A stretch of DNA of 21,782 nucleotides, from positions 1 through 21,782 of IMG/VR virus record IMGVR_UViG_3300030333_004277, one strand, 5' to 3'. The position numbers and the translations under genes were made by a program. Below are positions 2,541-21,782 of the stretch, in pieces (the stretch's first letter is position 1; each line of letters begins with the position of its first letter). The DNA comes from a virus. The notes under the pieces were generated by a model. That model was not told the DNA's origin. It was given only the letters and a program-made list of their open reading frames with translations, and ran no database searches.

Positions 2541-2542
2541 AG

Positions 2543-2572
2543 AAGGAGAACTTAATTGTTCTCCTTTTTTTT
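2543..2572 (+). terminator. Rho-independent terminator at the convergent gene junction
   Basis: A perfect 9-bp stem (AAGGAGAAC at 2543-2551 pairing with GTTCTCCTT at 2558-2566) closes a 6-base loop (TTAATT) and runs directly into a T tract ending at 2572. It starts 2 bases after the radical SAM stop codon and ends 5 bases before the stop codon of the opposite-strand gene. The T tract makes it a good terminator for the + strand genes. On the - strand the stem is followed by CTTTAAAAT, a poorer tail, so activity in that direction is possible but weaker. The GGAGAA in the stem is not a ribosome site, because no start codon follows it. Confidence 0.9.
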
Positions 2573-2577
2573 AGACT

Positions 2578-5500
2578 TTATCTTCCAAATTTAGCATTAC
2601 CTCTAGTGTAGTATTCCATAGCTTCTTTTAAGTCTTTATGTTTTTCTAGTTGCTTCCACCATGGTACTATATCTCTAAATCTGTATTTTATTTTAGTTTC
2701 TCCTTTTCTTTTACCTGTTTTATAAACTTCATAAGGACCAAATCCTAAATTATCATCAATAAGCTGATCACCTAATTGTAGTATTCTTTGTACTAATGTT
2801 ATACTTACAGCTGGAGAACCTAATATTCTTAAGAATTCTCTTGGATCTGTATATTGCATTAACTCTGAATTTAATCTATTTGCCCAAAGAGCCATTGCAT
2901 AGTATAATGGATCATCTTCTTCATCTGCAGATGCTGCAAGCACACTTCCTAATACTCCAGTAACAATCATAGAGCCTACTTCTCCAATAGTTCTTCTTAT
3001 TTGTGCTTTTTCATATGAATTTAAAGTATTCCATTCTCTTTGAGACATACCTGCTAATTTAAATCTAAATCTGTGTAAATCTTTTAATACATTTTTAAAA
3101 AATTTAATAGTTGTTACATAGTCTCCATCCATTTCGGTATTAAGACCCATTTGGTAATTCTGTAGATTAGGCATATTAGCTTTTTCAGACCAAATTTTAG
3201 AAATATTTCTCCATCTTTTAGCAAATCCAGGAATCATAAATCTTCTCATAGAAAACATTAAAGTACCCCACCATTTAAACTCAGCTGCATTTTTATTATT
3301 TTTTGCATAGTGACCATGAAGATAACCATTTATTAATTGTAATGGTCTAACTATATGTTTAGATACAAAAGCAGTTTTATTAGGATCAGATTTACCATCT
3401 ACACTTGTACTTGCTACCCTATCATCTAGTTTTAAAGAAAACACACCGTTTTCATCTTCTACTCTTTCATGAGCATCTAACAAACTCATTGCTTTTTTAA
3501 TATCTTTAGTTGTGCCTCCTTTAGTAAGATAGTTACCATCTTTATCAAATACTTTTATATTATCTAAAAATGCCATAGCAGGGACACCGTGGTTAAAATA
3601 TTCAGGTAAACTAATCGTAGCCCATAAAGAATCACCTTTTGCTAATTGTGTAAATCGATGGGTATCTGCAAAATTATATCCTCTTATACTAAAATTATTC
3701 ATTGCATCATATTTTTCTAATATAAGTCCTACAAAAGATTGTGGTTTACGTTTACCTATATCATTTAATATACCAGGTGTACCATTTATAAATTTATAAT
3801 ATGCTGTCATTAAATTTTTACCATTCCAATGATAACCTCCTACAGCTTCTATTACAGACATAGCTTGACCATAATTATAATTAGCTCCAGTTGCTATCCA
3901 GTTAAACTGTAATAATAATGCTCCTGCATATGTACCAATATTGTTTATAATTTTTGCATTAGAAACTTCTTTTGCTTTTTTGATTACTAATTTACCATCA
4001 CCTGGATCAACAACAACCATATCTTTACCTATTTTAGTCGACTTACCCATCCAACCTTGCGCATTTATTTGAAAAACTCGTTGATCTATGTGCTCTCTGA
4101 TTAACTGATAAGCATTACTTGTTCCCTCTTTTCCTTCTCCTTGTCCTTGTTTAAACATTTGCGTAAAATACTTTTTAGCTTTATTGTAGACATTATCGTA
4201 TCCTTCTTTTATAGGTACTTGTCTTTTTTTCATAAAGTATTCTATCATTTGTACTTCAGGTAGTATATTATTATACTCATGAAAATGTAAAGCTGTAGCA
4301 TAATTTTTTAAAACTAAATCTACTACATTAAAAGACATGTTTTCTAGTCCTACATCTGATCTACCATGTATAGGTATATATCTTCTAACATCTCCTCGTA
4401 CATCTGCATATACTTCTTGACCTTCTTGTTCTTCTAATAATTGATCTATTCCTTCTATAGTAGGATCTGTTTCTTCTTGATCTAATCTTTTTTCTTCTCC
4501 TCTTATTTCATCATCTTCTTGTACAAGCCATGATTCTCTTACATATTCTTTAAAAGAATCCCACATAGATATACCTGCAGTTTTTGCATCTTTACTATCT
4601 GTTAAAATTCTTTCTTTAGCTAATTTACGATATTGGTAAATTTTAGATCCTAGTTTATAGTGCCCTGGTACTATTAAATCTGCTCCTCTTTGTAAATCCA
4701 TTAAATATTTATACAAATTTAAAACAGCCTCATCACTTTTTAGTAATTCATTATACTGAGGATTTTCCCATTTAGCTTTTGGTCTACTTACTGCGATACC
4801 TTTAGCTGCTTGTTCTTTTTGATATTGTCTAGCTTCTTCTACTTTTTTAGATGCTATTAGTCTTGAGTATTTTTTATCAGTTGACCAATTTTCTTTGAAC
4901 CACTGTCTACGCATTTCTTTACCTTCTTTTTCACTAATATTCTCAGCAAAAGACTCTTCTAGTATTTTCTTTTTTTCTTTATATACTTCACTTTTATATT
5001 TTTCTACAAAATGACCTGTACGTAATCCATCATCGTCTAATTCTAAAAACGGTGCATATAATTCAGAACTTTCTGTAGCTAGTGCTCCTATTTCTTTTTT
5101 TCTATGCTCTTCATATGCTTTAGTTAAACCATATAATTCTGTAACTTTTATTAATAATTCTTGACGGATCTTATCATCTGTTACATCGAACTTTTCAGAA
5201 AGTAACTGCGCAACACTATCTTTTTGTCTTCCTAATGCAACCATAAACTGGTCCCACCTGCTAATATCTCCAGTAGATGTATGAAAAATATCTTTTAACC
5301 AATTAACTGATTCAGTATATATTTCACTTTTATCTTTTTCTAGTTGTTCCCATACATACTCATCTCTAGCAGCTTCATATTTTTCTTGTGAAACTTTTTC
5401 TCCATCTAATTTACGAGTAGATAACCATCCTTCTATAGGATTTTTCTCTTGAAAATCTTTTCTATATTTTTCTACATATACTTTTTGTTTAACTGTAGTA

Positions 5501-6318
5501 AAATGTGGCGCATATTCATGTGCTAATATATTAGCCGCTGCTATTTTATATTTATTTTCAATTCTATTTCCTGCTACTTGTAATTCTTCTAAAACCTCAA
5601 GCTCATCTTCTGTTATTATATCTAATCCTTCTGCTTCTTCTGCTTTTGAATTATAATCATTTAGTATACCATCAGCTAAATCACCATATCCTTTTATATA
5701 CTTGTACATATCTTGTACTAGCTTAGCTTTTTGGTCCCTAACTTTTTTATTTTGCCACTCGACTTGACTTATTTTACCAATATTATCTAATTGTTGTAAA
5801 ATTTTAGCTGCTTGATCAGCGGCATTATCTAAAAATGTAATAAAAGCTTTTTTGTTCTCTGCTTCAGTATAACTTTCTAGAAGTTTTTCAATCTCTTTTA
5901 GATTATCTATATATAATTCAGCACCTTTAGTCCTGTTAAATTCTTTTATTTGTACATTTAAAGTATCAATAGATTTCTGTATATACTTAAGTTTTAAATC
6001 AGTTACTTCTTTAGTTTTTTTACCTAAATATTTTTCTTTTAGATTTTCTTTTTTCTGGTCTAGTACTTTTTGTTTAAAATCTAAAACATGTTCTAATAAA
6101 GGCATACCTTGCTTATCAAGCTTACCTTCAAAAAATTCACTTTTTGGATTAGCAATAAAATTACCAAAGTATTGAAAAAATTCTTTACTCAATACAGATT
6201 GTAATATCTCATCACCTTTATTAGTTCCAAATTTTTCAGATAATTCTTTACCTAAAGTAGGATATACTTGTTTACCAGTAGGTAATGTTACTTTAATTTT
6301 ACAAGGTTTTCTAGCCAT
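2578..6318 (-). CDS. Large putative virion protein encoded after the RNA polymerase gene
   Basis: This 1246-residue protein has no catalytic motif that I recognise. The N-terminal 600 residues are strongly helical and charged, with long Lys/Glu coiled-coil stretches (clearest at about 75-150). The C-terminal half has hydrophobic, Gly/Ala-rich segments at about 785-830 (IGTYAGALLLQFNWIATG) and 1108-1126 (VGSMIVTGVLGSVLAAS), the latter followed by an acidic run (ADEEDDP). A basic aromatic patch, MRRFMIPGFAKRW, lies near 1027-1040. The pattern at 785-850, with Asn/Gln-rich hydrophobic helices followed by an EAVGGYHW..K.L..A-like segment, resembles from memory a motif in large crAss-like proteins encoded beside the virion polymerase. 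A packaged cargo or ejection protein that contacts the host membrane is therefore plausible, but it is an inference. Its ATG shares one base with the stop of the small gene upstream (TAATG), so translation is probably coupled. It is the last gene of the - strand block. Confidence 0.75.
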   Translation of the reverse strand: MARKPCKIKVTLPTGKQVYPTLGKELSEKFGTNKGDEILQSVLSKEFFQYFGNFIANPKSEFFEGKLDKQGMPLLEHVLDFKQKVLDQKKENLKEKYLGKKTKEVTDLKLKYIQKSIDTLNVQIKEFNRTKGAELYIDNLKEIEKLLESYTEAENKKAFITFLDNAADQAAKILQQLDNIGKISQVEWQNKKVRDQKAKLVQDMYKYIKGYGDLADGILNDYNSKAEEAEGLDIITEDELEVLEELQVAGNRIENKYKIAAANILAHEYAPHFTTVKQKVYVEKYRKDFQEKNPIEGWLSTRKLDGEKVSQEKYEAARDEYVWEQLEKDKSEIYTESVNWLKDIFHTSTGDISRWDQFMVALGRQKDSVAQLLSEKFDVTDDKIRQELLIKVTELYGLTKAYEEHRKKEIGALATESSELYAPFLELDDDGLRTGHFVEKYKSEVYKEKKKILEESFAENISEKEGKEMRRQWFKENWSTDKKYSRLIASKKVEEARQYQKEQAAKGIAVSRPKAKWENPQYNELLKSDEAVLNLYKYLMDLQRGADLIVPGHYKLGSKIYQYRKLAKERILTDSKDAKTAGISMWDSFKEYVRESWLVQEDDEIRGEEKRLDQEETDPTIEGIDQLLEEQEGQEVYADVRGDVRRYIPIHGRSDVGLENMSFNVVDLVLKNYATALHFHEYNNILPEVQMIEYFMKKRQVPIKEGYDNVYNKAKKYFTQMFKQGQGEGKEGTSNAYQLIREHIDQRVFQINAQGWMGKSTKIGKDMVVVDPGDGKLVIKKAKEVSNAKIINNIGTYAGALLLQFNWIATGANYNYGQAMSVIEAVGGYHWNGKNLMTAYYKFINGTPGILNDIGKRKPQSFVGLILEKYDAMNNFSIRGYNFADTHRFTQLAKGDSLWATISLPEYFNHGVPAMAFLDNIKVFDKDGNYLTKGGTTKDIKKAMSLLDAHERVEDENGVFSLKLDDRVASTSVDGKSDPNKTAFVSKHIVRPLQLINGYLHGHYAKNNKNAAEFKWWGTLMFSMRRFMIPGFAKRWRNISKIWSEKANMPNLQNYQMGLNTEMDGDYVTTIKFFKNVLKDLHRFRFKLAGMSQREWNTLNSYEKAQIRRTIGEVGSMIVTGVLGSVLAASADEEDDPLYYAMALWANRLNSELMQYTDPREFLRILGSPAVSITLVQRILQLGDQLIDDNLGFGPYEVYKTGKRKGETKIKYRFRDIVPWWKQLEKHKDLKEAMEYYTRGNAKFGR

Positions 6319-6440
6319 TATTTTCTTTTCTTAACTTTTACGCACTTATCTTTACCGTTCTTAGTTCCAGCATATCTATAACCTTTCCAACATGCTTTAC
6401 CATCGGCCCCTTTTTTCTTATTACTTTTTCTTTCTGCCAT
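6318..6440 (-). CDS. Small basic protein with two cysteines, 40 residues
   Basis: This short reading frame encodes 40 residues, with 16 Lys/Arg and only three acidic residues. The centre reads GKACWKGYRYAGTKNGKDKC, with Cys at 17 and 33 and a cluster of aromatic residues between them; both ends are Lys-rich. I know of similar small ACWKGY-type proteins in marine phage genomes, but no function for them. It is supported as a real gene by its tight fit. Its start overlaps the preceding small gene by 20 bases in another frame, and its TAA stop shares a base with the ATG of the 1246-residue gene. An AGGA lies only one base before the ATG, too close for a normal Shine-Dalgarno site. Nucleic-acid binding or a small virion component are guesses. 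Confidence 0.7.
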   Translation of the reverse strand: MAERKSNKKKGADGKACWKGYRYAGTKNGKDKCVKVKKRK

Positions 6441-6525
6441 ATCCTTTTCTTTTTTTAACTGGTCCACCTTTTTTATATGCTTTTACTGCAGTTCCTCTTT
6501 TATAAGTTGATCTTCTTTTCATCAT
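6421..6525 (-). CDS. Tiny highly basic protein, 34 residues
   Basis: This 34-residue frame starts with a double Met (ATGATG) 22 bases after the giant gene's stop codon. Sixteen of its residues are Lys or Arg and none is acidic. The core AYKKGGPVKKRKGYGRKKK combines Gly, Pro and Tyr with runs of Lys, a composition seen in small phage proteins of unknown role and in nucleic-acid-binding tails. It ends 20 bases inside the next small gene. The compact fit between two large genes makes a real gene more likely than chance, but low complexity in an A-rich strand could also produce such a frame. If translated, it could neutralise packaged DNA or accompany the virion polymerase; this is speculation. 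Confidence 0.6.
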   Translation of the reverse strand: MMKRRSTYKRGTAVKAYKKGGPVKKRKGYGRKKK

Positions 6526-6547
6526 TTTTTTATATGTTTTGCGAATG

Positions 6548-9500
6548 TTACGGACATTCTATGTTAGTATCTAGTTCATCATTTTCAGTAGAGTCGTATA
6601 TTCCACCTTCAAAAGTTTCTATATCATCTTCTTCTATAAAACTAAATCCTTCTTCTTCTGATTGTTTCAAAATATTATCTAAATTATTATCTGGCACAAA
6701 CGATCTATCTCCGTCTGATTTAGAATACTCGTAAATATAACGATTATTTGCATCTCTTAATCCTAATTTATGAGTTATTTTATACACACCTTCTCCTTTA
6801 CTATTTACTTCAGTAAATTTATATAAGTTATTTTCAAAAGTAATAAAAGGTTTATAGTTTGTATCATCTAATTTAAATTTACTTGACTCAGTTTTAAATT
6901 CTATAGCAACTCCTGTTTTTTTCTTTTCATGTCTTTTCATACTTTTCTTTACAATATCATTTTTACGTGCATTCGGCACTAAAATTTTATTATGATGTAA
7001 GTGTCTGTATACTTGATTAATTATATCCATGAAATATTCAGAATCATTCAAACTTAATAGATTTCTTTCTGTTTTTAATTCTGGGTTTTTTAAATTCTTA
7101 AAACTTTCATTAATTTTAATAGATAGACTTGAGTCTTGTGGTGTTAATTCATGGAAAGAAAATAAATTAGTTCTCCATGCTGAAGCATATAATGCATATT
7201 TAGGTAATTCTTTTGTAAAAAATTCTTCAGTTCTGCTTGACCAGCTATTTACTAATCTATCACTAGTTGCAGAATCTTTAATAGCAGATGTGTTACCTTT
7301 TATATATCCTATACCTCCTTCTCTAGATTTTAAAGGTGTAAGAAAATCTACTATTGCTACGTTTTGTAATTTATTTTTACCATGTTTATAATTCCATAAT
7401 TTATTTGCAGTAGAATTTTCACCATAAAACATATTTTTTAATTCTGCTTTACTAGTATTATCTATAGCCATATACATAGAAGCATATAAATGATCTATTA
7501 TTAGGTTAATTGTTTCTACACTAAAATCACTTAAATCTCTACCTGATTGTACTGCAAATACATTAAGCGCACCAACAAATGCATTACTTGATTCTAAAAA
7601 CATTTTTTCAGTACTATTTATAAATAGTTTAGGAGCATTTTCAGTATATGCTTCAATAGCAGTTCCTTTCATTTTACCTTCTATACCATATAAATTCTCA
7701 TCATTCATGGCATTATTCATTCTATCTAAAGTAATTAATGATGCTGCTATACTACCACCTGTTCCTGATACATCCGCAGACATTGCTGCCATTTGATTAT
7801 TTAGTGACTTTGCTCTACCTGAAATATCTTTAAAATATTGTAATATTTGTAATTGCTCTTTAGGAAAAGATACTCCCTGGCCTATCATTTCATATAATTT
7901 TGATGCAGGTATTACTCTTGTTACTTCTCTAGAGTCTATTAATTTATTTAAAGTTTTACCTTCTGTTGAAATTAATTCATTATCTTCTTTATTATATTTA
8001 TATCCTCCTATTTTAGCATATTTTGTTAACACAAGTTCTTGTGCAGGTATCAATCCTTCTTTGTCATATTGTTTTTCTGATAGATTACCTTCGTTATTAT
8101 CCATAGTAGTAATCAAATCTTTTATAATAGGTTGCGCCATAAAGTAAGCAATCCATTCTTTTGGAGCCCCAGCTCTAATTAATAAAGCCCTGTGATTATT
8201 AGTAGCCGCACTTAAATTTAATCCTTGCGCTGTTTCTGGATCTCCTTCTATATCTACATTTATGTTTACTTGTGAAGATAATGTATCTGCTATAAGATTA
8301 CCTTCTACATCAAACATTTGTCTTAGATCTGTTATACCTAATGAATTATCTTCATGTCCTATTGACATAGATTCTACACCAAATATTTCATCTAATGTAT
8401 TATAGGATGATATACCATGATCTGAAGTATGTAATGAAAATTGACCTGTACCTGCTGCTCCTACTTGGAAAATTCTTTTTAAACCTAATTGATACATTGG
8501 ACTTGCCCATTCTAGATCTTTTCTAATACTTAATAAATCATTTACTTTATCTATGTACTCTTCTTTATTACGTCTTAGTTTAGTTAATGAAGCTTTATCT
8601 CCTTGAGATAATCTAGAAATATTTTCTTTAGCTCTAATTCTAGCAGCAAAATATCTATCATCTAGTGTTTCAATTGGTTTCATAGATCTTTTATGTACAT
8701 CAACATCTGATAAAATTTCTGTATATAATTCTATCATTCTATTATGTAACGCTTTTTTACTCTGCTCGCCAGCTGGCTTAGACTTATCAAATTCTATGTA
8801 TTCAATTTCTTTTGTTTTTTTATTATATGTGAAATAAGGTAGTATAGTATATAGCTTATCAAAATCAAAATCATGTCCTGTTTTAGGTACCATTTCATTA
8901 TAAGCAATTACAGAATTACCCATAGATTGTGGTAAAAATCCTACAACTTCATTTTGATCAATAGAAGATAAGAATTGTGTTGGTATTCTATAACTAATTA
9001 ACTTACGCAATCTAGGATCTGTTAAATATTGTTTAACTTCATTCATAGATAATTTACCGCTTGGTATAATTTTACCCATCCAATGTGGCAACCAAACATG
9101 TCCTGGTATTACTTTACCATTTTTTATATATGTAGGTTTTAATTCTTCAGGATTTACAAAAGCGCTCTTTTTCAACATATCTTGTTCTATAGGGCTTAGC
9201 TCGCTAAATTTAGTGACAGGTTCGTATAAACTAGCATTAATTAAAATCTTACCTCCACCTGGACCCTTAACTTTAACAGCTGCTTTTGTATACATTGATG
9301 CTACTATCTGTTGTACTTTACGTCTTATTGGACTAGCAGACAATTCATTTACAAAATCATTATCAACTACATCTAAATGCTTTCTTAAATGACGTGATAT
9401 ATTTGTAGTTCTAGACATATTATCTTTAATATCATCAGATAATTTATTTAGATTACTATACATATAGTTATTATCATTAACACCTTCATTAATTAAATCT

Positions 9501-12500
9501 ATACCATATTTCTTTTTTAATTCTTCTGTTTGTTTATTAGATTGTGCTGCATATATATCATTTAATTCTTTAGCTATTTCTCTATGTCTAGGTTTATCAG
9601 GATTTAAAACCTCAAGAGCTCCTACAATTTGTTTTTTAGGTTGTGATCCGATTAACTGATCACCTTTTTTTACTGGGCTTTTTTGTTGTAATTTCCAATG
9701 TCTAAATTCTAATCTCATTGGAGTTAACTCTTGGCTTAAAAGATTAGGATCTTTTATATTACCTTGCTCATCTAATATATTAATAGGATTTTGTGCTCCT
9801 GCTTTTACAGCAGACATATGTACTATAACATCTATTGGATTTGTACTATCTTCCATAGCTACTCTTAACTCATCTAGTTTAGTACCTTCTGTAAAATGTG
9901 GATACAATGGTACTTGTGAGTATTTAAGATATGTAGGTATAGACATTCCTTTTGTATTTCTTAACTGATAATGCATTCCTTTAATAGGCTGTGCTATTAT
10001 CAATTCTATATCTTTTTCTTTTGCAGTTCCCCTGATTAATCTTTGGTGAGCTTCTTCTTTGTCCTTACTCCAACCTTCTAATCCTGTTACAATATCTTTA
10101 TAATGTTGTGCTGTTATATAAGCATTTCCATCACTACTTGTAATTCTACCTAATTGTGGATGTATATCAGAATTTTTAATAATATCATTAATTACTGCAG
10201 CTGTATAATGAGTTTTTATATTACCATATTCATCTTTAATTTCTCCAATTAAATCTCCTGTAGCTAATAAAGAAGGAGGTCTTTTTTCTATACTTGTACC
10301 TTTATAAAATGCAGGATCACCTAAAAACATATGCTGCATCTCAAGATTATTCATCATACTATTTATAGTATACTCAGCAATTGCTCTTTTTATAGCTTGT
10401 GTTCTTGTTTCAGAATACTTTTTTTCGTATTTTTTTATTATATTTAAATCAATAGCTTTATTTATAAGTATATCATTATCTCTTTTTATTAATCCTATTT
10501 TTATAGATTCTAGATATTGTTCTTTTACTCTTTCTTCTAACACTTTTTCTATATAAGGATATAGTTTAGTAGCTGTATCTTTATCTAATGTTTCTACAAG
10601 TGTACCATCGCTTTTAAAGAATAAAGGCGCTAGTTTTTGGTCTATATTTAATGTAGGAAAATTTAAAAATTGTAATCCTTTAGCTTTACTAAAATCTTTT
10701 TTGCCTTGTTTATCTATACTATAATGATAATCAACAATCATATCTTTTACTGCTAATCCTCCTGCAATATGACCAGCAACTTGTGACATTCTATTATACT
10801 CTGCTAATACTTTATCTGCAAACATACCTTTGATACCATCAGAAAATCTAATAGCATCATTTTCCCAATGAAAACCTGCTCCTAAATCTATTTTAGGTAA
10901 TCCTTTAAAAAACTGGAATACAGATTTACTTGCATATGTCATAGGTAAACTATAACCATTTAATTCAAGAGCCATTCTCATAGCTACTTCATCAATCTTT
11001 TTTAAATTTTTAAATGATTGTCCTATAGTTTCTCCTCCTCTTAATGCGCCCATAGTTTTAACTTCTAGTTCTACTCTGGTATCTTCGCTTTGTTTTAGAC
11101 TATTTAAATATCTTGATGTTCTATTAAAAGGAGAAGCTAGTAAATCATTTACATGTTTATTATTATTTAAACTACCATTTTTTACTATCCTAGCTATATT
11201 TGTCATGTAGTTATAAGGAGCAAATAGCCAATGCGACTTATTATTTGCTGTACGTATAACAGATTCTCCGTAATGATTTAAATACTTAGCTGTAGAATTA
11301 GCTAGCGTTCTTATTATTTTTTCATCTTTAAAAAAGTTATTATCATTAAAGTCAATACTTTTACCTTCTCCCATTTTTTGTAGAGAGTATCCTGACCCTA
11401 AAAATAATTTATTGATACCTGATACAAGTCTCATAAATTTTTGTAAATTATCTTTACCATTTAAAGATTGATAAGCATCTCGTAATTCTTTTGTAGATGT
11501 ATTTATACCTACTTTAGCTAATATATCTGATATTTCTTTACCTAAACTATCTGTTAATATACTGTTATTTGCTATAAATCTTGCCTTAAGCCCTGGATTA
11601 TTCGGCCTGTTGTTTTTTAATGTTTTCCATTCAGTTACAATAGGTGTTATATTTTCTTTGTTTCCAACTATCTCACCTTCTTTAGTTTCAAATAAATTTA
11701 AATCTTGGAAATTCTCTAACCATTGGTTTACTACTTTAGACCTTCTAGAAAATTCTCCTGGATCATATAAATTAAATTTAACTGCGCCAGGCTTTCCTCT
11801 GTGATTTGCATTTAAGAAATTCATAGATCTTAAATTAAATGCAGCATGGAATTTAGTTTTTAATCCTGGTATTTTGTTAATAGCATCATAAATATATCTA
11901 AAACTAGGATCTGTAGATTCTAATTTTTTTAATTTATCTAGCATTTGTTTTTCTGAAGTAACAAATTCATCACCTATATAGTCACTAACTATATCAGATA
12001 GTTCGTTTTCTAGTATAGAAAATAAATTATTACCATCTGCAGGTTTTACTAAATTAGTATATGGGCTAATCTTAACATCATAACTACCTTCTTTTAATTT
12101 AAGAGAGTTTAATTCTGGTGTAAGTAATACTAATAATTTTATAGCAGGCCTAGCTTTATCTCTATTAGATATTTCATAAGCAGGTCTTACTGCTTCTAGT
12201 ATTTCTGTATTATTCTCATCAATAGCATTTTCAATCTCAGTTTCTACAGTAGTATCTTTACCATTAATAAATAATAAATGGCTTCTTAGTTCGTTTTTAA
12301 AGAACTCTTCGTGATCTACAATTTTATTTAACCATTGCTTACTCGGGTCTTTTGCTATTTGTTCTTTAATATTATTAAATGTATTTTCTATATCAACAAT
12401 TATTTCATCTTTCTCAAGTAAAGTTCTAATACCCCCTGAGTTATCAACTGCATGTCTAAGTAAAGATAAACTTATATCACCAATTTGATCTTCATTAAAT

Positions 12501-15500
12501 ACTCTTTCAGCTACTTCAGAATAAGATATTATTCCAGCTTCAGATAGAGCTTTCATTCTTTCTGGTCTAGGATTTTTACCTTTGTAATAACCTTCATGAA
12601 TATTTTTAAATAAAGAATCAACTGTTGTTTTAGGCTTGCTAAATAATCCTTTAATCCAATTCCATAATCTTTTAAAGAAATTAGTTTCTTTCTTACCAAA
12701 TCTAGTTTTACCGTCTGATGCTGCATAGTTTTGATAATTATTTGCTCTATGCTCTGATAAATATAAATGTCTATAGTAATCATCTTTAGTTTTAAAACCT
12801 AATTCATTAACAGCTTTAGTACTAATTTTATTACCCCATCTTGTTTTATATTTATATAAATCTGCAACACTAGGTAATCCTACTATCTTCATAGTCTCGT
12901 TATTTAACTCTTGAATCTCTTCATTAGTTAACATAGTTTCTTCAATAGCATGATATAATTCATGGTATTCTACACCTGTTGCCGCTTGTCTAGATAATTT
13001 AACACCTGTTGCTTGGAACATACCTTGAGCATAAGAACCTAATTCATTTCCTATAGATATAAAATCATCTATAAATTCTAAAGGAAAATCTGTTCTTTTT
13101 TCCCAATACGCTCTAGCTTCTGCTTCATCTATAATAGGGCTACCTAAAGTTTCTGGTGTAACCTCAGAGAACATACCCATATCTTCATTACCAAAATCTA
13201 ATTTTTTTGTAGTATCTTTCAGTTTAATTATATCCTTTCCAAACTTTTTATACAATTGTTCTAATCTTGGAGCTAATTCAACAGCTTTAAGTCCTATAGC
13301 AGCACCTGCAACCAATTCTTTCCCAAGATTTTCCTTCATATATTGATCTGCTTCCTCTTCAGTCTTACCCTCATCTCTGGCTTTTTGTCTAGCTTTACTA
13401 AATTTTATACCAAGTTTTGTTGCAGATTCCATAGCAGTTTGATTATCTAAACTACCTTCTGATGTTGATAACCAATTTACTAAAGCTTGATCTTGTTTAG
13501 ATAATGTAGTTTCAGTTTCTTTTTTTATTACTTGAGGTTTCTCTTTAGCATTTACTTCATTACTTAAAAATATATTAGGATCCATAAAAGGATTAGTTTG
13601 TATATCTGTATTAACAGTTATAACTCCTTGATCCATTAAGATTGTATTATAATCATCATTTTTTCCCTTCTCAATCTCAGTTCCTAAGAAATTTATTTTT
13701 TCTAGCGCTTCAAGCTCTCCAGAAAATATACTTCTATTTGTGTATTGTAGATCAATCCTACGTTTTTTATGTTGTTTTATATGATTTATAACAGCCTCTT
13801 CTTCTTGTGGTGTTAACTTACCTTTACTTGTTTTATTACTACCATAATGTATACGTTTGTTAGTAAGGTCGACATATAATTTATTATCTATTTTAGATGT
13901 ACTGGCACCTGGTCCTTCATATACTAATAGATTTAACATTTGCCCATAAGTCAATCCTGAATTAGCATAAGGAGTTTTAGGACTAGCCTTTTTACTAAGA
14001 AAAGATTTATATATATTTAATATAACTTTAGCTTCCTGTGTATTTATATTTCTATTATTTGCTTTAACAGGAGTAACACTGTTAGGTCTATTTATTTCTA
14101 AAAATACCCAACCATTAAATTTATCTTGCCATTTAAAATGAGGATGTATATATTCACTACTAGTTTTATTTTCACGTAGTGCTTGTTCATTCTTATCTCC
14201 AATAGCAACTCTACCTAATGTATCACCAAATACTTGTCTTGGATCATTTTGTTCTTCTCCATATTTAATTCTTTGATAACCATATATATCTTCTATACTA
14301 CCTATAGGAGTTTGATTAAGAGCTAATATATTATATATTTGTGTTTTTAATTTAATTAAGTTGTTTTTAGTTTCTGCTATCATTGCATTATCATACAACA
14401 CACCTCTTACCTCACGTTCTTTAGCTCTTTCTTCTGTTCTAGATTTTACTATTTGTCCAGTTTTTTTATTAACTAGCACCATTTCTATTGGCAAACTAAT
14501 TAATTTTTTTGTAAGATCTTCTACATTAGTATTTAATTCTTTTGCTATTCCTGGAGTTATAGGTTTAGGATTTTTAAATAAATTTACTACACCTTCGCCA
14601 AGATTATCTATTAATCTTTGGCTAAATCCAGCAGAATTTATTCTGTATATTACATCATGGTTTTCTATAATTTCTTTCTCAGGAGTTTGAGATAAAAAAT
14701 AAGAAGTTTGTGGTTCCATTGATGCATAAGAACTAGTGCCTGATACTCTTCTTAAAAATACAAATCTAGGTCTTGGTTCTTTTTTTAATCTAATATCATC
14801 TTCTTTAGCATCTCTTTGTGCTTGTTCAGCAGTTATTTCATCTCCTGTGTTTTCTAAATTATCTGGATTAGTTCCTTTTATTTGAGCATTTTTATGACTA
14901 CCTACAACAGTACCTTGTCTATTAGATCCTTCATTACGTCCTTTATGTTCTCCTTCTAATACTTCAGCTAAGCTAAGAGTTTCATCTAATATATCATCTG
15001 GTATTATAGCGCCTTCTTCATTAAGGTCTTGGTCAGCATATAATCCGCCAGCTTCTATCTTTTTTCTAGTCTCTGATAATTTATCTTTAACACCTTCAAA
15101 TGTTTCTAATTTATCAAGTTGGTCTTCAGGTATTTTTTCTGTTATACCTGTAGATTTTATTTTTACATCAAGAGTACCATCAGAATTACGTTTTAATACA
15201 GTTCCTTCATTTCCTTTATAATATACTAAATCATTTTCATTTATATCTCCATCAGGATCTTTTATCTTTTGCTTAACCTCTTCTGCTTTAGCTGCTTTCT
15301 TTTGGCCTTCTTTTTTGTTTTCAACAAAAGACTTAAGCTCTTCAGCATATGGTTCAAAATATTTAATATTCTCACCATCAAGTTTTTCCATCTCAAGATA
15401 ATAATTATTATGTCTCTCAGCTTCTAACTCTGCAATTATTTTTTTACTTTCTAAATCTACTAATTTATCATCTTGACTAAAAGTTGCTTCAGAGAACCCT

Positions 15501-17557
15501 CCATATGTTTCTATTGCTTCATCAACTTTACCTAATAATTCTTTTCTTTTATTTTCAAGTTGTTCTAAAGTATCTCTAAGTACTCTTTCATTAACTTTCT
15601 TTGGGTTAACTGCTTTATTTTTATCTTTTAGTATACTTTTAATATCTGTTATAGCTCTATCAACAGCTTTTAAACTGTTGTTTATTCTATTCATTTCTTT
15701 AAAGCCGTCCTTTCTTTCAATACCTGAGTCTGCTTCATAAATAGATTGTATAGTATTTTCTGTTTCTGCTGCTATATTTCTAGCAATTTTAGCTTTATCT
15801 TTAGACTTCATCATAGTAGCCATAACTACTTTCTTTTCATCTGCTGATAAATTTTTATACCCAGGTTGTTGTAATTTATCATAGATACCTCTCATGATAT
15901 TAAGATCTGCTAAAGCTTCATCTTTTGTAAGCTCAATAAAATTATCTTCAGGTAATTTATTTATTATCTTTGTAATATCTTCTACAGTTTTACCTTTTGA
16001 AAACATATCATAATAACTACCTGCTCTATAAAGAACTTGTTCTTCTCTACCATAACTATCTATAACATCATTTATATGTTTTTTATTAGCTTTATTATAT
16101 ACAGTGTTAAGTCCTTCTTTATATCCTTTAGTAAATATATTTTGTCCTAGCTCTATAGTGGCACCCATACCAGCACCTAATATAGCTCCTGCTCTTACAG
16201 AATTTCTAAATTCTGGATTGTTTGTTCTGCCTCCTACATAATCTCCGCTAAGCATACCCATCATAGCTTGACCTGTTTCTAAACCTAAACTAAAACCTCT
16301 TGATACTCTATCTAAAAATCCAACATCAAATGTTGATCCAAAACCATAAGTACCTCCTGAACTTCCTTTATCATATATACCTTCTAAATAATCTTGTTTA
16401 GTTAAAAACTGGTATCCTTCTTCCATACCTTCTATACCACCTTGATAAGCCATACCTACTCCATAACCAAGTACTTTAGATGCTCTACTAGTACCTAATA
16501 AATTACGTGTTAATCTACCCCATGGCATGAAAATACCTGCTCCTACCTGAGCTACATCACCAAAACCTAATAACATGTTTTGTTGGTACACTTCTCTTAC
16601 ACCTTTAGCAGCTCTTTTTTTAATTACTTCTACTAATTCTTTAGGTGCTTTTGATCTGTTTCTAGATTCCCAAAGAGCTATATCTTCTTTTACTCTAGTT
16701 TCATATGCATCCCACGCTTCTGCATTAGATTCAGCATCTCGCATATTCCAGGTTTCATATAGTCCATAACCTATACCAGCAATTGTAGTACCTGCAGCTA
16801 CCCAAGGATTAACATTTGCTACACTAGTACTTGCCCATGCAGCAGCTAATCTCATTCCTACATTTTTGATAAGTTGTGGACCAACAATAGCTTTTGCCAT
16901 AGACATAGCTTCAGACATAGATCCTCCTATATCTTGCGCTGCTTCTCCACTACCTAAATAAGACCACCAATTACTCGCCTCTTCTTGTTGTTGTGCAGCT
17001 GTAGCTTCTCTATAATAATCTGAAATAGGATTTCTAGATAATTCATCTTCTTCTTCTGCAATATCAATTTCAATATCTTGTATCTCAGATTCTAGCTTTT
17101 TTATTTCTCTTGTATATACTTCTATATCTTCAGGACTTAATTCAGGATTAGTATCTAATTCTTGTTTAAGCTCATCAATACGAGTTTGGTGCATTAACTT
17201 TCTACCTTTATATTTAGATAATTGTATTTGATCTATTTGTGCATATAAAGTATTCCACCAGTTTTTACTATCGCTTTGTAAATTATTTTCAACATACTCA
17301 GGCTCTACACTAAATCCAGGAAAAGCTTCAGTAATTCTTGGAGCAGTATCAATTGCATTAGTTCTTCTTTGTCTTAATAAAGATTCTGTTAATTGTATTT
17401 TAGGCTTATAATCATTGATTATAGGAGCCGTAAATCCTGGAGGTTGTAGACTTTGTAATAAATCTTGAAGATCATCTTGCTCAGTTATTGTAGGATCTTC
17501 AAATTGTACATTATATAAATCTATAGGTTTGTTAGTGTTTTCGTCACCGTTACTCAT
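6548..17557 (-). CDS. Giant crAss-type virion RNA polymerase protein with fused zinc metalloprotease domain
   Basis: This 3669-residue protein is probably packaged in the virion and injected to transcribe early genes. The polymerase signature lies at residues 2857-2900: RIPTQ (2857-2861), a FLPQSMGNSVI strand region, then GHDFDFDKLY, whose D2896, D2898 and D2900 form the DxDxD metal-binding loop of the double-psi beta-barrel polymerases. A GDPAFYKG..IEKR segment near 2410 also matches the crAss pattern, from memory. Further N-terminal is a gluzincin-like protease, HELYH at 1532-1536 with a likely third ligand E1602, followed by an amphipathic FFKRLWNWIKGLF helix near 1627. Residues about 765-812 look like a small KOW/SH3-like barrel. 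Residues 110-180 are coiled coil, and Gly/Ala-rich hydrophobic stretches occur at about 205-270, 326-386 and 412-480. The C-terminus is acidic. The known phi14:2 polymerase is about 2200 residues, so this one carries large extra regions. The ATG at 17557 follows the upstream stop by 9 bases, with an A-rich leader and no Shine-Dalgarno site. Confidence 0.93.
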   Translation of the reverse strand: MSNGDENTNKPIDLYNVQFEDPTITEQDDLQDLLQSLQPPGFTAPIINDYKPKIQLTESLLRQRRTNAIDTAPRITEAFPGFSVEPEYVENNLQSDSKNWWNTLYAQIDQIQLSKYKGRKLMHQTRIDELKQELDTNPELSPEDIEVYTREIKKLESEIQDIEIDIAEEEDELSRNPISDYYREATAAQQQEEASNWWSYLGSGEAAQDIGGSMSEAMSMAKAIVGPQLIKNVGMRLAAAWASTSVANVNPWVAAGTTIAGIGYGLYETWNMRDAESNAEAWDAYETRVKEDIALWESRNRSKAPKELVEVIKKRAAKGVREVYQQNMLLGFGDVAQVGAGIFMPWGRLTRNLLGTSRASKVLGYGVGMAYQGGIEGMEEGYQFLTKQDYLEGIYDKGSSGGTYGFGSTFDVGFLDRVSRGFSLGLETGQAMMGMLSGDYVGGRTNNPEFRNSVRAGAILGAGMGATIELGQNIFTKGYKEGLNTVYNKANKKHINDVIDSYGREEQVLYRAGSYYDMFSKGKTVEDITKIINKLPEDNFIELTKDEALADLNIMRGIYDKLQQPGYKNLSADEKKVVMATMMKSKDKAKIARNIAAETENTIQSIYEADSGIERKDGFKEMNRINNSLKAVDRAITDIKSILKDKNKAVNPKKVNERVLRDTLEQLENKRKELLGKVDEAIETYGGFSEATFSQDDKLVDLESKKIIAELEAERHNNYYLEMEKLDGENIKYFEPYAEELKSFVENKKEGQKKAAKAEEVKQKIKDPDGDINENDLVYYKGNEGTVLKRNSDGTLDVKIKSTGITEKIPEDQLDKLETFEGVKDKLSETRKKIEAGGLYADQDLNEEGAIIPDDILDETLSLAEVLEGEHKGRNEGSNRQGTVVGSHKNAQIKGTNPDNLENTGDEITAEQAQRDAKEDDIRLKKEPRPRFVFLRRVSGTSSYASMEPQTSYFLSQTPEKEIIENHDVIYRINSAGFSQRLIDNLGEGVVNLFKNPKPITPGIAKELNTNVEDLTKKLISLPIEMVLVNKKTGQIVKSRTEERAKEREVRGVLYDNAMIAETKNNLIKLKTQIYNILALNQTPIGSIEDIYGYQRIKYGEEQNDPRQVFGDTLGRVAIGDKNEQALRENKTSSEYIHPHFKWQDKFNGWVFLEINRPNSVTPVKANNRNINTQEAKVILNIYKSFLSKKASPKTPYANSGLTYGQMLNLLVYEGPGASTSKIDNKLYVDLTNKRIHYGSNKTSKGKLTPQEEEAVINHIKQHKKRRIDLQYTNRSIFSGELEALEKINFLGTEIEKGKNDDYNTILMDQGVITVNTDIQTNPFMDPNIFLSNEVNAKEKPQVIKKETETTLSKQDQALVNWLSTSEGSLDNQTAMESATKLGIKFSKARQKARDEGKTEEEADQYMKENLGKELVAGAAIGLKAVELAPRLEQLYKKFGKDIIKLKDTTKKLDFGNEDMGMFSEVTPETLGSPIIDEAEARAYWEKRTDFPLEFIDDFISIGNELGSYAQGMFQATGVKLSRQAATGVEYHELYHAIEETMLTNEEIQELNNETMKIVGLPSVADLYKYKTRWGNKISTKAVNELGFKTKDDYYRHLYLSEHRANNYQNYAASDGKTRFGKKETNFFKRLWNWIKGLFSKPKTTVDSLFKNIHEGYYKGKNPRPERMKALSEAGIISYSEVAERVFNEDQIGDISLSLLRHAVDNSGGIRTLLEKDEIIVDIENTFNNIKEQIAKDPSKQWLNKIVDHEEFFKNELRSHLLFINGKDTTVETEIENAIDENNTEILEAVRPAYEISNRDKARPAIKLLVLLTPELNSLKLKEGSYDVKISPYTNLVKPADGNNLFSILENELSDIVSDYIGDEFVTSEKQMLDKLKKLESTDPSFRYIYDAINKIPGLKTKFHAAFNLRSMNFLNANHRGKPGAVKFNLYDPGEFSRRSKVVNQWLENFQDLNLFETKEGEIVGNKENITPIVTEWKTLKNNRPNNPGLKARFIANNSILTDSLGKEISDILAKVGINTSTKELRDAYQSLNGKDNLQKFMRLVSGINKLFLGSGYSLQKMGEGKSIDFNDNNFFKDEKIIRTLANSTAKYLNHYGESVIRTANNKSHWLFAPYNYMTNIARIVKNGSLNNNKHVNDLLASPFNRTSRYLNSLKQSEDTRVELEVKTMGALRGGETIGQSFKNLKKIDEVAMRMALELNGYSLPMTYASKSVFQFFKGLPKIDLGAGFHWENDAIRFSDGIKGMFADKVLAEYNRMSQVAGHIAGGLAVKDMIVDYHYSIDKQGKKDFSKAKGLQFLNFPTLNIDQKLAPLFFKSDGTLVETLDKDTATKLYPYIEKVLEERVKEQYLESIKIGLIKRDNDILINKAIDLNIIKKYEKKYSETRTQAIKRAIAEYTINSMMNNLEMQHMFLGDPAFYKGTSIEKRPPSLLATGDLIGEIKDEYGNIKTHYTAAVINDIIKNSDIHPQLGRITSSDGNAYITAQHYKDIVTGLEGWSKDKEEAHQRLIRGTAKEKDIELIIAQPIKGMHYQLRNTKGMSIPTYLKYSQVPLYPHFTEGTKLDELRVAMEDSTNPIDVIVHMSAVKAGAQNPINILDEQGNIKDPNLLSQELTPMRLEFRHWKLQQKSPVKKGDQLIGSQPKKQIVGALEVLNPDKPRHREIAKELNDIYAAQSNKQTEELKKKYGIDLINEGVNDNNYMYSNLNKLSDDIKDNMSRTTNISRHLRKHLDVVDNDFVNELSASPIRRKVQQIVASMYTKAAVKVKGPGGGKILINASLYEPVTKFSELSPIEQDMLKKSAFVNPEELKPTYIKNGKVIPGHVWLPHWMGKIIPSGKLSMNEVKQYLTDPRLRKLISYRIPTQFLSSIDQNEVVGFLPQSMGNSVIAYNEMVPKTGHDFDFDKLYTILPYFTYNKKTKEIEYIEFDKSKPAGEQSKKALHNRMIELYTEILSDVDVHKRSMKPIETLDDRYFAARIRAKENISRLSQGDKASLTKLRRNKEEYIDKVNDLLSIRKDLEWASPMYQLGLKRIFQVGAAGTGQFSLHTSDHGISSYNTLDEIFGVESMSIGHEDNSLGITDLRQMFDVEGNLIADTLSSQVNINVDIEGDPETAQGLNLSAATNNHRALLIRAGAPKEWIAYFMAQPIIKDLITTMDNNEGNLSEKQYDKEGLIPAQELVLTKYAKIGGYKYNKEDNELISTEGKTLNKLIDSREVTRVIPASKLYEMIGQGVSFPKEQLQILQYFKDISGRAKSLNNQMAAMSADVSGTGGSIAASLITLDRMNNAMNDENLYGIEGKMKGTAIEAYTENAPKLFINSTEKMFLESSNAFVGALNVFAVQSGRDLSDFSVETINLIIDHLYASMYMAIDNTSKAELKNMFYGENSTANKLWNYKHGKNKLQNVAIVDFLTPLKSREGGIGYIKGNTSAIKDSATSDRLVNSWSSRTEEFFTKELPKYALYASAWRTNLFSFHELTPQDSSLSIKINESFKNLKNPELKTERNLLSLNDSEYFMDIINQVYRHLHHNKILVPNARKNDIVKKSMKRHEKKKTGVAIEFKTESSKFKLDDTNYKPFITFENNLYKFTEVNSKGEGVYKITHKLGLRDANNRYIYEYSKSDGDRSFVPDNNLDNILKQSEEEGFSFIEEDDIETFEGGIYDSTENDELDTNIECP
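8821..9010 (-). other. RNA polymerase catalytic barrel segment within the giant protein
   Basis: This segment encodes the RIPTQ to DFDFDKLY stretch. The three Asp codons of the DxDxD loop lie at 8870-8872, 8864-8866 and 8858-8860. In the family, these residues hold the catalytic Mg2+ that joins ribonucleotides. The surrounding hydrophobic pattern and the Gly-His before the loop match the crAss-type polymerase rather than T7-like single-subunit enzymes, which have a different fold and no such motif. Confidence 0.9.
12553..13200 (-). other. Metalloprotease region within the giant protein (gluzincin-like plus amphipathic helix)
   Basis: This sub-region encodes about residues 1453-1669 of the giant protein. 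HELYH (1532-1536) supplies two zinc-binding His and the catalytic Glu. E1602, in LSEHRANNYQNY, sits about 65 residues later in the place of a gluzincin third ligand. Immediately after comes the amphipathic, Trp/Phe/Lys-rich helix FFKRLWNWIKGLF, a type that inserts at membrane surfaces. From memory, a zincin domain joined to the polymerase-containing giant protein has been reported in crAss-like phages. Processing of the giant protein during virion assembly or after entry is a natural guess. Boundaries are approximate. Confidence 0.75.
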
Positions 17558-17566
17558 AATACTTTT

Positions 17567-20500
17567 TTATTTAAAACTTTCAATATGGAAATGATCGTCT
17601 TCTACTAGAACTGTAAATATAGGTTGACCTGTCATAGAATATACTGTATATTTTGGACCTAGACTAGTATCTTTTGTTTTCTTAGCCGCTGGACTTGTGT
17701 TTAACCAATCGCTAAATTTTTCATTTAACCTCACATCAATACCCATACCTTTTGTATGTGTAGAACCATGTTGACCACCTACAGTCTTATTATATTCTGG
17801 AGTTCTATATAACCCAGTTATAACAAATTCTTCACCTAAACTTTTAGCAATATCATTAATACTAACCATTACTGCTTTTGTAGTATTAGTTACATATGGA
17901 GCGTATACACTTTCAAGGAATCTTAAGTCACTATATAAATTTTCAGATACTTTATTTAATCCAAGACTTTCAGCTCTTTTTGATGCTACTGTTTTATAAG
18001 CATTAATAGACGCTTCTGTATTTATAAACTTATTATCTTTAATATACTGTACTCCATTATAAAAGCCTCCGCCTCCCCAAGGAGCTATGTGCTCATATAT
18101 CAGATTTCTTTTTTCTTCAGAATCAATAGGTGTATTAAATAAATCTACAAATTGAGCCCCTAACATAGCATCTTTGTTATCTTCATATTCCCAAGGCATT
18201 ATTCCTTCTGGTATTTCATCAGTATCATAGATAGGTTTTTTCTTAAAGCTACCAGTTCCAAAAGTACCATTAGTTGAGTATCCATTTTCCCATAAATCAT
18301 TATCAACTAGATATGTTTCTAATCTATTTGCAGCATCTATTCTATCAGCATCACCTGAATTAATTTCAGATTCTATAAAGTCATTTATATTATTAGCTAT
18401 TTTCTTTCTATGATTTACTGTACCAGATGGCATATTATCAGAATACAATCGTTTAGCATTTATAAAGTTACGTGTTTGGTTTTGGAATATAGCTTGACCA
18501 AAGATTGCATCATTTCTATTTGCATTTCTTGTTTGGTTATATAATTCTTGTTGCAATAGTCTTTCTTGATTACCAGCTTTACCTACACCATAGAAACCTT
18601 CGTTAATATTATTTGCTACTGCCCAATCATCATTCACTTGTCTCCATGCACCATTTAATTGGAAATAATTAACATCAGCTTCTCCATTATTATCTTTGTC
18701 TACATATAGTTCACTAGCAGGTGATGGGGTATACACACTAAACATATTATATCTACTATTTTCACCAACAAATTCATCATCCCAATCACCAAACCAATCA
18801 CTGGCTTGGTCATATCCTTTTCTTTGGAAATATTCATCTAATTGTGCTTCAGTAAATAGCATATTACCTTGTACAAATTTACCAGTAACAGGCATACCAC
18901 CTTCCTGACCTATAACCATAGTTTTAGTAGGCGCATTAGGTATATGCATCCATACTCCTCCAGATCCTGCTAACTCACTTAGCTCTACAGCCATTAAAGC
19001 ATGCATATCGTCTTTATCAAGATCTAAATCCTCCATATCTTTTTTAGTACCTGCTTGATAGTTTTTAAGCATTTCTTGTAACTCAGGATTCATTACATCT
19101 ACACCATACTTAGTAACATAATCTGCAACTGCTACATCTATTTCATTTTGTAGTCGATCTCTCTCTTCAATTTCAGTTTTAGATATAACATTCCAAACAC
19201 CGCCTGGTGATGCTTTTTGTTTATTTTCGCTTGTTACCCAATTTTTATACCACTCAGGATCATGAGTTATAAGTTTTTGGTTTGTTTGCCACGCTTTAAA
19301 ACTTGAAAATTTACTATTCTTTCCGTTATTTGTCAGTATATTATAATCTGCTTCAGTGATTTTACCATCACCATCTTTATCATAATTTTTTAAAATAGTT
19401 TTCCAATATTTCTTTTTCTTATTATAAGTACTTCTTTCATCACTAGACATCCAATCTTCTCCTATACCACGTTGCCTTCTTATTGCATCTAAGTCACCAC
19501 CTAAATTTCTCCATCCTACAAATTCACCATCTTCCCAAATACCATATTCCCATTGTAGTTCTTTAATTTTGTCACCATATGTATCCATAAAACTTTTTGC
19601 AACAGATATATTATGAGCAGATATAATATCATTTGTACTACCATCTCTTTTTATTTGTACAGGATTAAGATATACTTTTGTACCACTTTCTAAAGTATAA
19701 ATACCGTCTCCTAAATTAGTAGCTATTTTATTCATTATTTCAGGAGTTGTGGTAGTTTCATTAGATGTAGCCCAAGCTGTACCAGGTAAAAATGCACGAT
19801 CTAAATCATCTAATACAGTAGTATTATTATTTTTATTATTAATATTAGTATTACTTTTAGCACCTCCTTGAATATCTCTACCTAAATATTTTTGACCATA
19901 GTCATATATTATTTGTCTAGCTATATCTGTATCTGTCATATTAGGAGCTCCATCATTATTCATTCTATAGTCTGCTATAGCGTCTTTACCTGCAGGAGTA
20001 TTCATAAATGTTTCATCCATACCTGCAGCTACTCTACTAATATCTTCTTTAGTAACATCTTTAAGAATAAGACCAGTACTAGGATCTAATCGCTCATCAA
20101 CATTCATATCTTTATAATATCTTTCTAATAATACTGATGGATCATCATATCCTGCTACAGGATTAAATGGGTATACTCCTTGAGTTTGTACATCCCACAT
20201 TTGTTTTGTAGGATCACCAGCTGGTCCCCATGGATTTTGTGGAAGTCTACCTGCTTTATCAAGTTCACGTTGATGCGCTATGTTTTTGATATAGTTATTA
20301 TAACTAGTTTGTATATCAGCAAGGTTAGGATCATTAGTTATTGTTGTAATATCTCTATTAATATTACCCCAAACACTTTTAGTTAGATCTACATTACTAT
20401 ATTTATTTATTAAGTCTTCAGCATCTTGTCTCTTTTGTTTTACATATAATTCAGATGGACTAGGTTGGTATACTCCATTCTCATCTGTAGTACCAGGTAT

Positions 20501-20665
20501 AAAATTTAATCCAAGCACATCATCATATGCTTGGTTAAGCTTTTCTACTCTAGTATCTTGTAAATCATTTTTATATTTAGTAGCCTTGAATAATTCTTCA
20601 AAAGGATAATCAGGTACATAATCTACTATAGGCGCTGACCTTGATGTTTTATAATATCTACTCAT
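17567..20665 (-). CDS. Virion-associated protein with C-terminal M15-type zinc peptidase domain
   Basis: This 1032-residue protein ends in a peptidase domain of about 110 residues of the M15 (D-Ala-D-Ala carboxypeptidase/VanY, endolysin-like) type. The signs are YRTPEYN upstream, then STHTKGMGID with zinc ligands H970 and D977 (SxHxxGxxxD), and DDHFHIE, where H1025/H1027 give the final HxH, five residues before the end. Such domains cut peptide bonds of the cell-wall stem peptide. The first 900 residues are long, polar, Asn/Asp- and Trp/Tyr-rich, without a fold I can name. They hold a canonical EF-hand loop at 429-440 (DKDGDGKITEAD) and a weaker one at 656-667. A wall-degrading domain at the end of a large protein next to the virion polymerase suggests an ejected or tail-associated lysin that opens the wall during entry. 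The gene starts 11 bases after the previous stop, with an A/T-only leader and no Shine-Dalgarno site. A late lysis enzyme is less likely given its size. Confidence 0.82.
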   Translation of the reverse strand: MSRYYKTSRSAPIVDYVPDYPFEELFKATKYKNDLQDTRVEKLNQAYDDVLGLNFIPGTTDENGVYQPSPSELYVKQKRQDAEDLINKYSNVDLTKSVWGNINRDITTITNDPNLADIQTSYNNYIKNIAHQRELDKAGRLPQNPWGPAGDPTKQMWDVQTQGVYPFNPVAGYDDPSVLLERYYKDMNVDERLDPSTGLILKDVTKEDISRVAAGMDETFMNTPAGKDAIADYRMNNDGAPNMTDTDIARQIIYDYGQKYLGRDIQGGAKSNTNINNKNNNTTVLDDLDRAFLPGTAWATSNETTTTPEIMNKIATNLGDGIYTLESGTKVYLNPVQIKRDGSTNDIISAHNISVAKSFMDTYGDKIKELQWEYGIWEDGEFVGWRNLGGDLDAIRRQRGIGEDWMSSDERSTYNKKKKYWKTILKNYDKDGDGKITEADYNILTNNGKNSKFSSFKAWQTNQKLITHDPEWYKNWVTSENKQKASPGGVWNVISKTEIEERDRLQNEIDVAVADYVTKYGVDVMNPELQEMLKNYQAGTKKDMEDLDLDKDDMHALMAVELSELAGSGGVWMHIPNAPTKTMVIGQEGGMPVTGKFVQGNMLFTEAQLDEYFQRKGYDQASDWFGDWDDEFVGENSRYNMFSVYTPSPASELYVDKDNNGEADVNYFQLNGAWRQVNDDWAVANNINEGFYGVGKAGNQERLLQQELYNQTRNANRNDAIFGQAIFQNQTRNFINAKRLYSDNMPSGTVNHRKKIANNINDFIESEINSGDADRIDAANRLETYLVDNDLWENGYSTNGTFGTGSFKKKPIYDTDEIPEGIMPWEYEDNKDAMLGAQFVDLFNTPIDSEEKRNLIYEHIAPWGGGGFYNGVQYIKDNKFINTEASINAYKTVASKRAESLGLNKVSENLYSDLRFLESVYAPYVTNTTKAVMVSINDIAKSLGEEFVITGLYRTPEYNKTVGGQHGSTHTKGMGIDVRLNEKFSDWLNTSPAAKKTKDTSLGPKYTVYSMTGQPIFTVLVEDDHFHIESFK

Positions 20666-20676
20666 AATTTAATTTA

Positions 20677-21782
20677 TTAACCTGGGTAATATAGATTTTT
20701 CCAATCTAAATAATCTTGTTCAGTAGCAGTTGGATTAATAGTCCTTTTATACTCACTAAAATCCATTGCAAAATTACCTCTTTTTATATTTTCTAAATAT
20801 GCTTGTTCTCTAAGTTTATTTATATCTTTCATACCTAATTGCTTAGCAAAGTTCTGTGTTTGGGTGCCCAAGTTACTTAAATTTTCTGACAATGCAGTAT
20901 AATATGCGTCTCTATTTTGATCTAATTTATCATCTCTTGCTGTAGCTCCAGTAGCATCAGCTATATCACCTTGGAATCTTGTTTGTGCTATTTGATTATA
21001 TAGTTGAGATTTTTGTGTATCAAATCTTAAATCAGATAAAGGTATCTGTTCCATAGCTGCTACATCTAGTGCTCGTGCACCTGCTCTTCTTTGTCCAGCA
21101 CTCATTACATAATCATCTAACCTATTTATTCCTTGTCTTCTTTGTCTATCTATTACTCTTCTTGCGCTTTCTTTTCCATCATCAAATACACTTAAAGCTT
21201 TTTCTTGATCTGCAATAGCAGCATTTTCTATATCTTCAAAGTAATTTATTTCGTCTGTATCTATTCCAGCCTTAAGTGTTGTCGCTAATGGACCAAAACC
21301 TGATATAGTTGAACCTACTCCTCCTAATATATCAGGTAAATTCTTTTTAATATTCATTCCCTCAAGAAGCTCTTTAATCGTTTGTCTAGGTTTAGCTACA
21401 TTGTTAGCAGGTGGTAAATTCGTCATACTACCAGGTACCCACATTTCCATATTATCATCCCACACTAACTGATCGTCTCCTTTAAAGTACTCTCCAAATG
21501 TAGGACTATTTTCATCTTCATCCATTGTAAACCCATATCTTTCTGCAGCTTCTGCTTGTAAATCTCCTCCACTAGTAGTCACATCTATAGGGTCAGCAGT
21601 TGATAATTCTGGAAGTTGTAATGCATTCGGATCAGTAATACTAGGTATTTCTTGGATAGGTAGTGTAGGTATTTCTGCCTGTCTTTCTAGATAATCAGGC
21701 ACACCGTTATTATTTCTATCAATCTCTCCTATACTTGGACCTGCATCTACTGTAGGTGAGGTCATACCAAACACTTTTTGAT
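20677..21782 (-). CDS. Helical virion protein, crAss-like (5' end outside window)
   Basis: The frame is open to the right edge. The first start codons seen are GTG at 21774 and ATG at 21765, but Gln-Lys codons precede them, so the true start may lie outside. Counted from the GTG, 365 residues are visible. Near the N-terminus is a calcium-loop-like DRNNNGVPDYLE (19-30), followed by a Pro-rich, acidic linker to about 125. A short Gly-rich hydrophobic segment follows (about 150-165, GGVGSTISGFGP). The rest is a long charged helical region, with RRVIDRQRRQGINRLDD and a DDKLDQNRDAYYTALSENLSNL segment. That last region (D..+D..YY..L..++...G...Q) resembles, from memory, a conserved structural or virion protein of crAss-like phages. 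The role is probably an internal or tail-associated virion protein; a scaffold or cargo function cannot be told apart. Confidence 0.7.
   Translation of the reverse strand, partial: QKVFGMTSPTVDAGPSIGEIDRNNNGVPDYLERQAEIPTLPIQEIPSITDPNALQLPELSTADPIDVTTSGGDLQAEAAERYGFTMDEDENSPTFGEYFKGDDQLVWDDNMEMWVPGSMTNLPPANNVAKPRQTIKELLEGMNIKKNLPDILGGVGSTISGFGPLATTLKAGIDTDEINYFEDIENAAIADQEKALSVFDDGKESARRVIDRQRRQGINRLDDYVMSAGQRRAGARALDVAAMEQIPLSDLRFDTQKSQLYNQIAQTRFQGDIADATGATARDDKLDQNRDAYYTALSENLSNLGTQTQNFAKQLGMKDINKLREQAYLENIKRGNFAMDFSEYKRTINPTATEQDYLDWKNLYYPG

Follow-up and report, generated by a model that had tools for sequence, protein, structure and literature searches.

Packaging of the crAss-type RNA polymerase (RNAP) in the virion and its activity on early genes are known for phages phi14:2 and crAss001, and the virion RNAP (vRNAP) of phage N4 is known to have the T7-type single-subunit polymerase fold. 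Virions of crAss001 contain gp47, gp49 and gp50, which are thought to be ejected via the tail (PMC10172136). It has also been reported that RNAP genes of crAss phages can be as long as about 6000 aa (PMC10136315) and that vRNAPs are fused to large proteins in crAss-like phages; in Thermus phage P23-45, gp96 is a tape-measure-fused vRNAP that is active in vitro (PMC10770324). In Cellulophaga phage phi14:2, gp67 (1797 aa), gp66 (2180) and gp65 (1421) are encoded in a row by three genes, and gp67 and gp66 are not fused.

The window studied here is the whole 21,782-base stretch of a virus record, IMGVR_UViG_3300030333_004277. With a probability of about 0.88, its giant gene (Table 1) belongs to a crAss-like relative of the Fpv phages and codes for the virion RNA polymerase, with a gp67-like part, a zincin-like metalloprotease domain and a gp66-like RNAP in one polypeptide. 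The frame starts with ATG and has no internal stops, and a sister contig (IMGVR_UViG_3300030090_003481; 95,091 bases), 98% identical to the window at the nucleotide level, carries a frame of identical length. Comparison of the two gives a dN/dS of 0.14 over the whole gene, falling to ~0.10 for the zincin and the RNAP and peaking at 0.235 in residues 611–1430. Judged from these comparisons the 3669-aa gene is real and under purifying selection, which bears out the single unbroken frame proposed in an earlier, sequence-only reading of this DNA. The split genes of phi14:2 could be taken to mean that separate genes were merged into the long frame by an assembly or frame error, but the sister contig and the selection data (dN/dS below 0.25 in every section) refute this, many relatives also have fused genes, and we give the artefact virtually no chance.

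Table 1. Features of the window, with residues numbered along the 3669-aa protein.
Feature	Residues	Coordinates	Strand	Basis
Complete gene, encoding 3669 aa with an N-terminal gp67-like part, a zincin-like domain and a crAss RNA polymerase of gp66 type		6548..17557	-	homology
Gly/Ala-rich stretch with conserved E-E-G-x-Q motif; weakly hydrophobic, no clear transmembrane segment	195-480	16118..16975	-	
Segment with homology to gp67, a virion protein of Cellulophaga phage phi14:2	1142-1271	13745..14134	-	hhalign probability 98.7, E 1.5e-16
Zincin-like domain composed of strands, a helix carrying HExxH and a Glu-bearing helix	1473-1660	12578..13141	-	motif and model
HELYH; presumed zinc ligands H1532/H1536, presumed catalytic E1533	1532-1536	12950..12964	-	
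E1602, presumed third zinc ligand	1602	12752..12754	-	Glu in 43/47 homologues
crAss-type two-barrel RNA polymerase	1724-3282	7712..12388	-	homology to phi14:2 gp66 (6vr4)
DFDFD	2896-2900	8858..8872	-	aligned to D1361/D1363/D1365 of gp66
gp65-like gene after the RNAP gene, 1246 aa; its phi14:2 homologue gp65 is an RNAP-associated virion protein		2578..6318	-	blastp 1e-52
Gene upstream, in cargo position (1032 aa); M15 peptidase domain at the C-terminus		17567..20665	-	Pfam 4.8e-7
Further upstream gene, C-terminal part, cut by window edge; phrog_15413, similar to Fpv3 gp30		20677..21780	-	

The phage itself is most likely crAss-like and a relative of the Flavobacterium Fpv phages. Crassvirales markers are present in the sister contig, though not in the window (Crass_capsid PF23898, 2e-124; CrAss_Ring_1 PF24228, 6e-54); among named phages, Flavobacterium phages (Fpv3, for example) have the closest major capsid protein (46%). 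Scans for close relatives returned the sister contig as the sole match, distant blastn against the phage collection gave zero matches, and no relatives were found in the bacterial genomes scanned. The giant protein has no family in Pfam, PHROGs or NCBIfam; a Rieske match to it (E 0.15) was rejected as noise.

A phmmer search matches the polymerase half (residues 1724–3282) to the phi14:2 RNAP (6vr4, 7e-65), the sole relevant solved structure, and a profile built from 46 relatives matches residues 851–1847 of 6vr4 at 4e-292. An AlphaFold model of residues 2376–3296 (pLDDT 82, pTM 0.84) aligns with 6vr4 in Foldseek (E 6e-38, TM 0.78, 1042 aligned columns) across the two-barrel core taken as a whole. 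By homology and predicted structure, then, the polymerase half is homologous to phi14:2 gp66 and has the two-barrel fold, and the crAss-type RNAP that the sequence-only reading placed in the giant chain is borne out by all three comparisons. In a 12-row alignment K2545 and R2857 never vary, and K2901 hardly does. The DxDxD residues are kept in homologues, the scan pattern for relatives having itself required DFD[IV]DK[LM]. Alignment to the two-barrel core and retention of DxDxD both run against the conditions that the sequence-only reading had named as refuting it. HELYH, E1602 and DFDFD all lie where that reading had put them. Shuffling at constant composition yields DFDFD in 0.08% of cases, HExxH in 6.3% and bare DxDxD in 57%; DFDFD and HExxH are not due to chance, because dozens of divergent relatives conserve both of them at the equivalent sites.

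The region bearing HExxH and the distal Glu is likely a zincin-like domain with putative proteolytic activity, as motif conservation and the model indicate. Of 47 homologous regions, 45 retain H1532, all 47 retain E1533, 36 retain H1536 and 43 retain E1602, and the spacing of E1602, ~70 residues past HExxH, is conserved in relatives. The model has a gluzincin-like order of elements, with a pLDDT of ~90 for the HExxH helix and core, and Foldseek finds 12 matches (E < 1e-3) to the equivalent region of crAss-like giants and zero in the PDB. Sequence matches to FtsH/YME1 and Zmp1 are marginal (E 0.03–0.04). The zinc protease claimed earlier thus stands as to the conserved HExxH…E and the gluzincin-like order, but no solved fold was matched, and since the sequence matches are also marginal, protease activity is inferred from motif and element order. 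A literature search for this crAss zincin found no description; the search was incomplete, so we do not claim the domain to be undescribed.

How such genes are organized was surveyed in 80 IMG/VR loci, kept from an alignment scan that returned >480 relatives, together with named phages; the fractions refer to this selected set. Fused genes are seen in 56 of the 88 classifiable rows, with 32 split and 3 further rows unclear, and on a quick RNAP tree the two states require at least nine changes. The rows nearest the window on this tree (L021–L025) are all fused, with HExxH present. Seven Suoliviridae genomes have a single gene of 4328–4946 aa with zincin and RNAP in the window's order, four of them reading TAG as a sense codon, and in crAss002 the RNAP is instead joined to the gp65-like part. 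The sequence-only reading held that characterised crAss polymerases are shorter or split, but single-gene forms prove common and mostly longer than 3669 aa. The one-gene layout is ordinary and not unusual, because named and cultured crAss-like phages and the published record share it. By these sequence comparisons the window is an ordinary member of a known family in which genes have merged and come apart more than once. With it, the known single-chain crAss polymerases also include an Fpv-like lineage; the parts for ejection and polymerization have been joined and separated repeatedly, and the split falls at the site of the zincin.

This last point bears on whether the protein is a polyprotein, with the zincin cutting the chain where it joins the polymerase, either during assembly or once ejected, and so freeing a gp66-like enzyme. 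The zincin adjoins the RNAP just where split RNAP genes begin: they start 1334–1424 residues before DxDxD, and H1532 of the window is at −1364. Moreover, 29 of 32 split rows are without an upstream zincin and 33 of 56 fused rows keep HExxH. After correction for kinship, however, the link between fusion and zincin is not significant (seven independent pairs, median p 0.5). The remaining 23 fused rows have no intact upstream HExxH (eleven have HExxE or WExxR and twelve have none), in cr128_1 an intact zincin (HEAFH with the Glu) has a gene of its own on the opposite strand, and the vRNAP of N4 (about 3500 residues) is reported to leave the virion as a giant protein (PMC12633501). Self-cleavage, as earlier proposed, is therefore not supported, because the zincin persists apart from the RNAP and has decayed or is missing in 23 of the 56 fused rows, and we consider self-cleavage unlikely.

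Within RNAP blocks as a whole the motif is frequent. HExxH occurs in 76 of 92 crAss RNAP blocks (those of L005–L015 and L021–L100 were included in the count), against 4.9 expected by shuffling, and its site varies among blocks, lying on either side of the RNAP or in the gp65-like gene. When these sites were sorted by profile, a single profile absorbed most of them. Enrichment together with variable placement suggests that the ejected set requires a protease, and that this requirement is not tied to a single cleavage site. On the sequence evidence, a protease with a task in the ejected set or in the infection is accordingly a better reading than one that cuts this joint alone. It might be a delivered effector that cleaves host proteins, for example against host transcription or defence early in infection, with the RNAP fusion as its vehicle. 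We hold this tentatively as a possibility, since processing of other cargo proteins would fit the enrichment and differing placement equally well.

The changed motifs are concentrated, with HExxE in nine loci of one clade and WExxR in two loci (L065, L076, L084, L085, L087, L088, L092, L093, L097, L099 and L100 taken together), and the zincin region itself is retained in these fused giants, which suggests that zinc binding was lost there. A structural or vestigial domain devoid of proteolytic activity would account for degeneration of the motif in two separate groups that retain the domain, and for a zincin model with no PDB match. Both His residues, the Glu and E1602 are nevertheless kept in the window and in most homologues, with the low dN/dS given above, and a vestigial domain appears improbable for this gene. 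A protease acting in the ejected set could be general: in Crassvirales, a near-obligatory but positionally mobile zincin may accompany the ejected RNAP set, either releasing or activating the polymerase or disabling a bacterial target at entry, with the window an instance at the natural joint between ejection and polymerase parts. In this general form the proposal is rather unlikely. The frequency of zincins in RNAP blocks raises a question for cultured phages, namely the substrate of the ejected protease.

At the N-terminal end, residues 198–610 match cr118_1 and cr52_1 by blastp. Gly plus Ala make up 26% of residues 195–300, compared to 13% overall, with the EEGxQ motif downstream. The membrane-like segments reported earlier stand as to this Gly/Ala richness but not as to hydrophobicity: over residues 1–900 the best 19-residue Kyte-Doolittle window reaches 1.18, below the usual transmembrane level of 1.6 and also below the 95% point of shuffles (1.75). 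A few relatives exceed 1.6 near the equivalent place, so membrane contact of the N-terminal part may be possible. A pilot or ejection role is plausible, because this part is homologous to the virion protein gp67 of phi14:2.

The RNAP gene belongs to a cargo/transcription block that comes after the tail genes, and the gp65-like gene follows it. The gap between these two (6319–6547, minus strand) contains a small basic frame, which in the sister contig has 52 aa and lies at 63309–63467. In the product of the upstream gene at cargo position, the M15 domain has STHTKGMGID and HFHIE motifs, and an EF-hand-like stretch is also present; this protein is possibly a wall hydrolase carried in the virion. 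The gene cut at the window edge encodes 848 aa in the sister contig. Adjoining the RNAP block, positions 1680–2540 (plus strand) encode a radical-SAM protein of the spore photoproduct lyase family (TIGR03886, 3.8e-95, below the cut-off; CLYNCSYC motif). The product of 439–1686 (plus strand) has a DDSGS (MIDAS-like) motif and is perhaps von Willebrand A-like, with no family match.

Taken together, the giant protein consists, in this order, of a gp67-like part (residues ~1–1430), a zincin-like metalloprotease domain (~1473–1660) and a two-barrel RNAP (~1724–3290), a succession that Crassvirales encode either in a single gene or in several. By analogy with phi14:2 and crAss001, the capsid would take up the protein, which would pass through tail and envelope together with the DNA and then refold, and early genes would be transcribed from the catalytic DFDFD site. 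Such packaging and ejection are most likely, on the model of these relatives; virion proteomics of Fpv phages was not found in our literature search. The N-terminal part may help packaging and ejection, and the zincin would travel with the polymerase and act on other cargo or host proteins, not on its own chain alone.

Among the systems compared, phi14:2 resembles the window in its homologous two-barrel RNAP with DFD-I/F-D, in the gp67 homology of the N-terminal part and in a gp65 homologue downstream, all in the same order. It differs in missing the upstream zincin, and HEIMH is found in phi14:2 gp65. The vRNAP gp50 of the Schitoviridae (N4) is alike by description, as a single-chain ejected polymerase of the size given above (PMC12633501). 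P23-45 gp96 is likewise a giant virion protein that combines RNAP, metallopeptidase and membrane domains in one chain (PMC10770324), but it comes from a long-tailed phage and its RNAP is N-terminal and clampless; kinship is considered for the two-barrel RNAPs only. The Suoliviridae giants (cr60_1, cr118_1, cr10_1, cr55_1, cr113_1, cr52_1 and cr4_1) share with the window a Gly-rich N-terminal part, zincin and RNAP in one gene, followed by a gp65-like gene, with HExxH about 1430–1530 residues ahead of DFD[IV]D. Compared with the window's protein they are longer and about 20–25% identical to it, and some use the TAG sense codon. In the cultured Flavobacterium phage Fpv3, gp32, annotated as a virion structural protein, is like the window in being a single 4287-aa gene with an RNAP core (profile 2e-111), but it has DYDID for DFDFD, and its HExxH lies at 4065, C-terminal to the RNAP, with none upstream.
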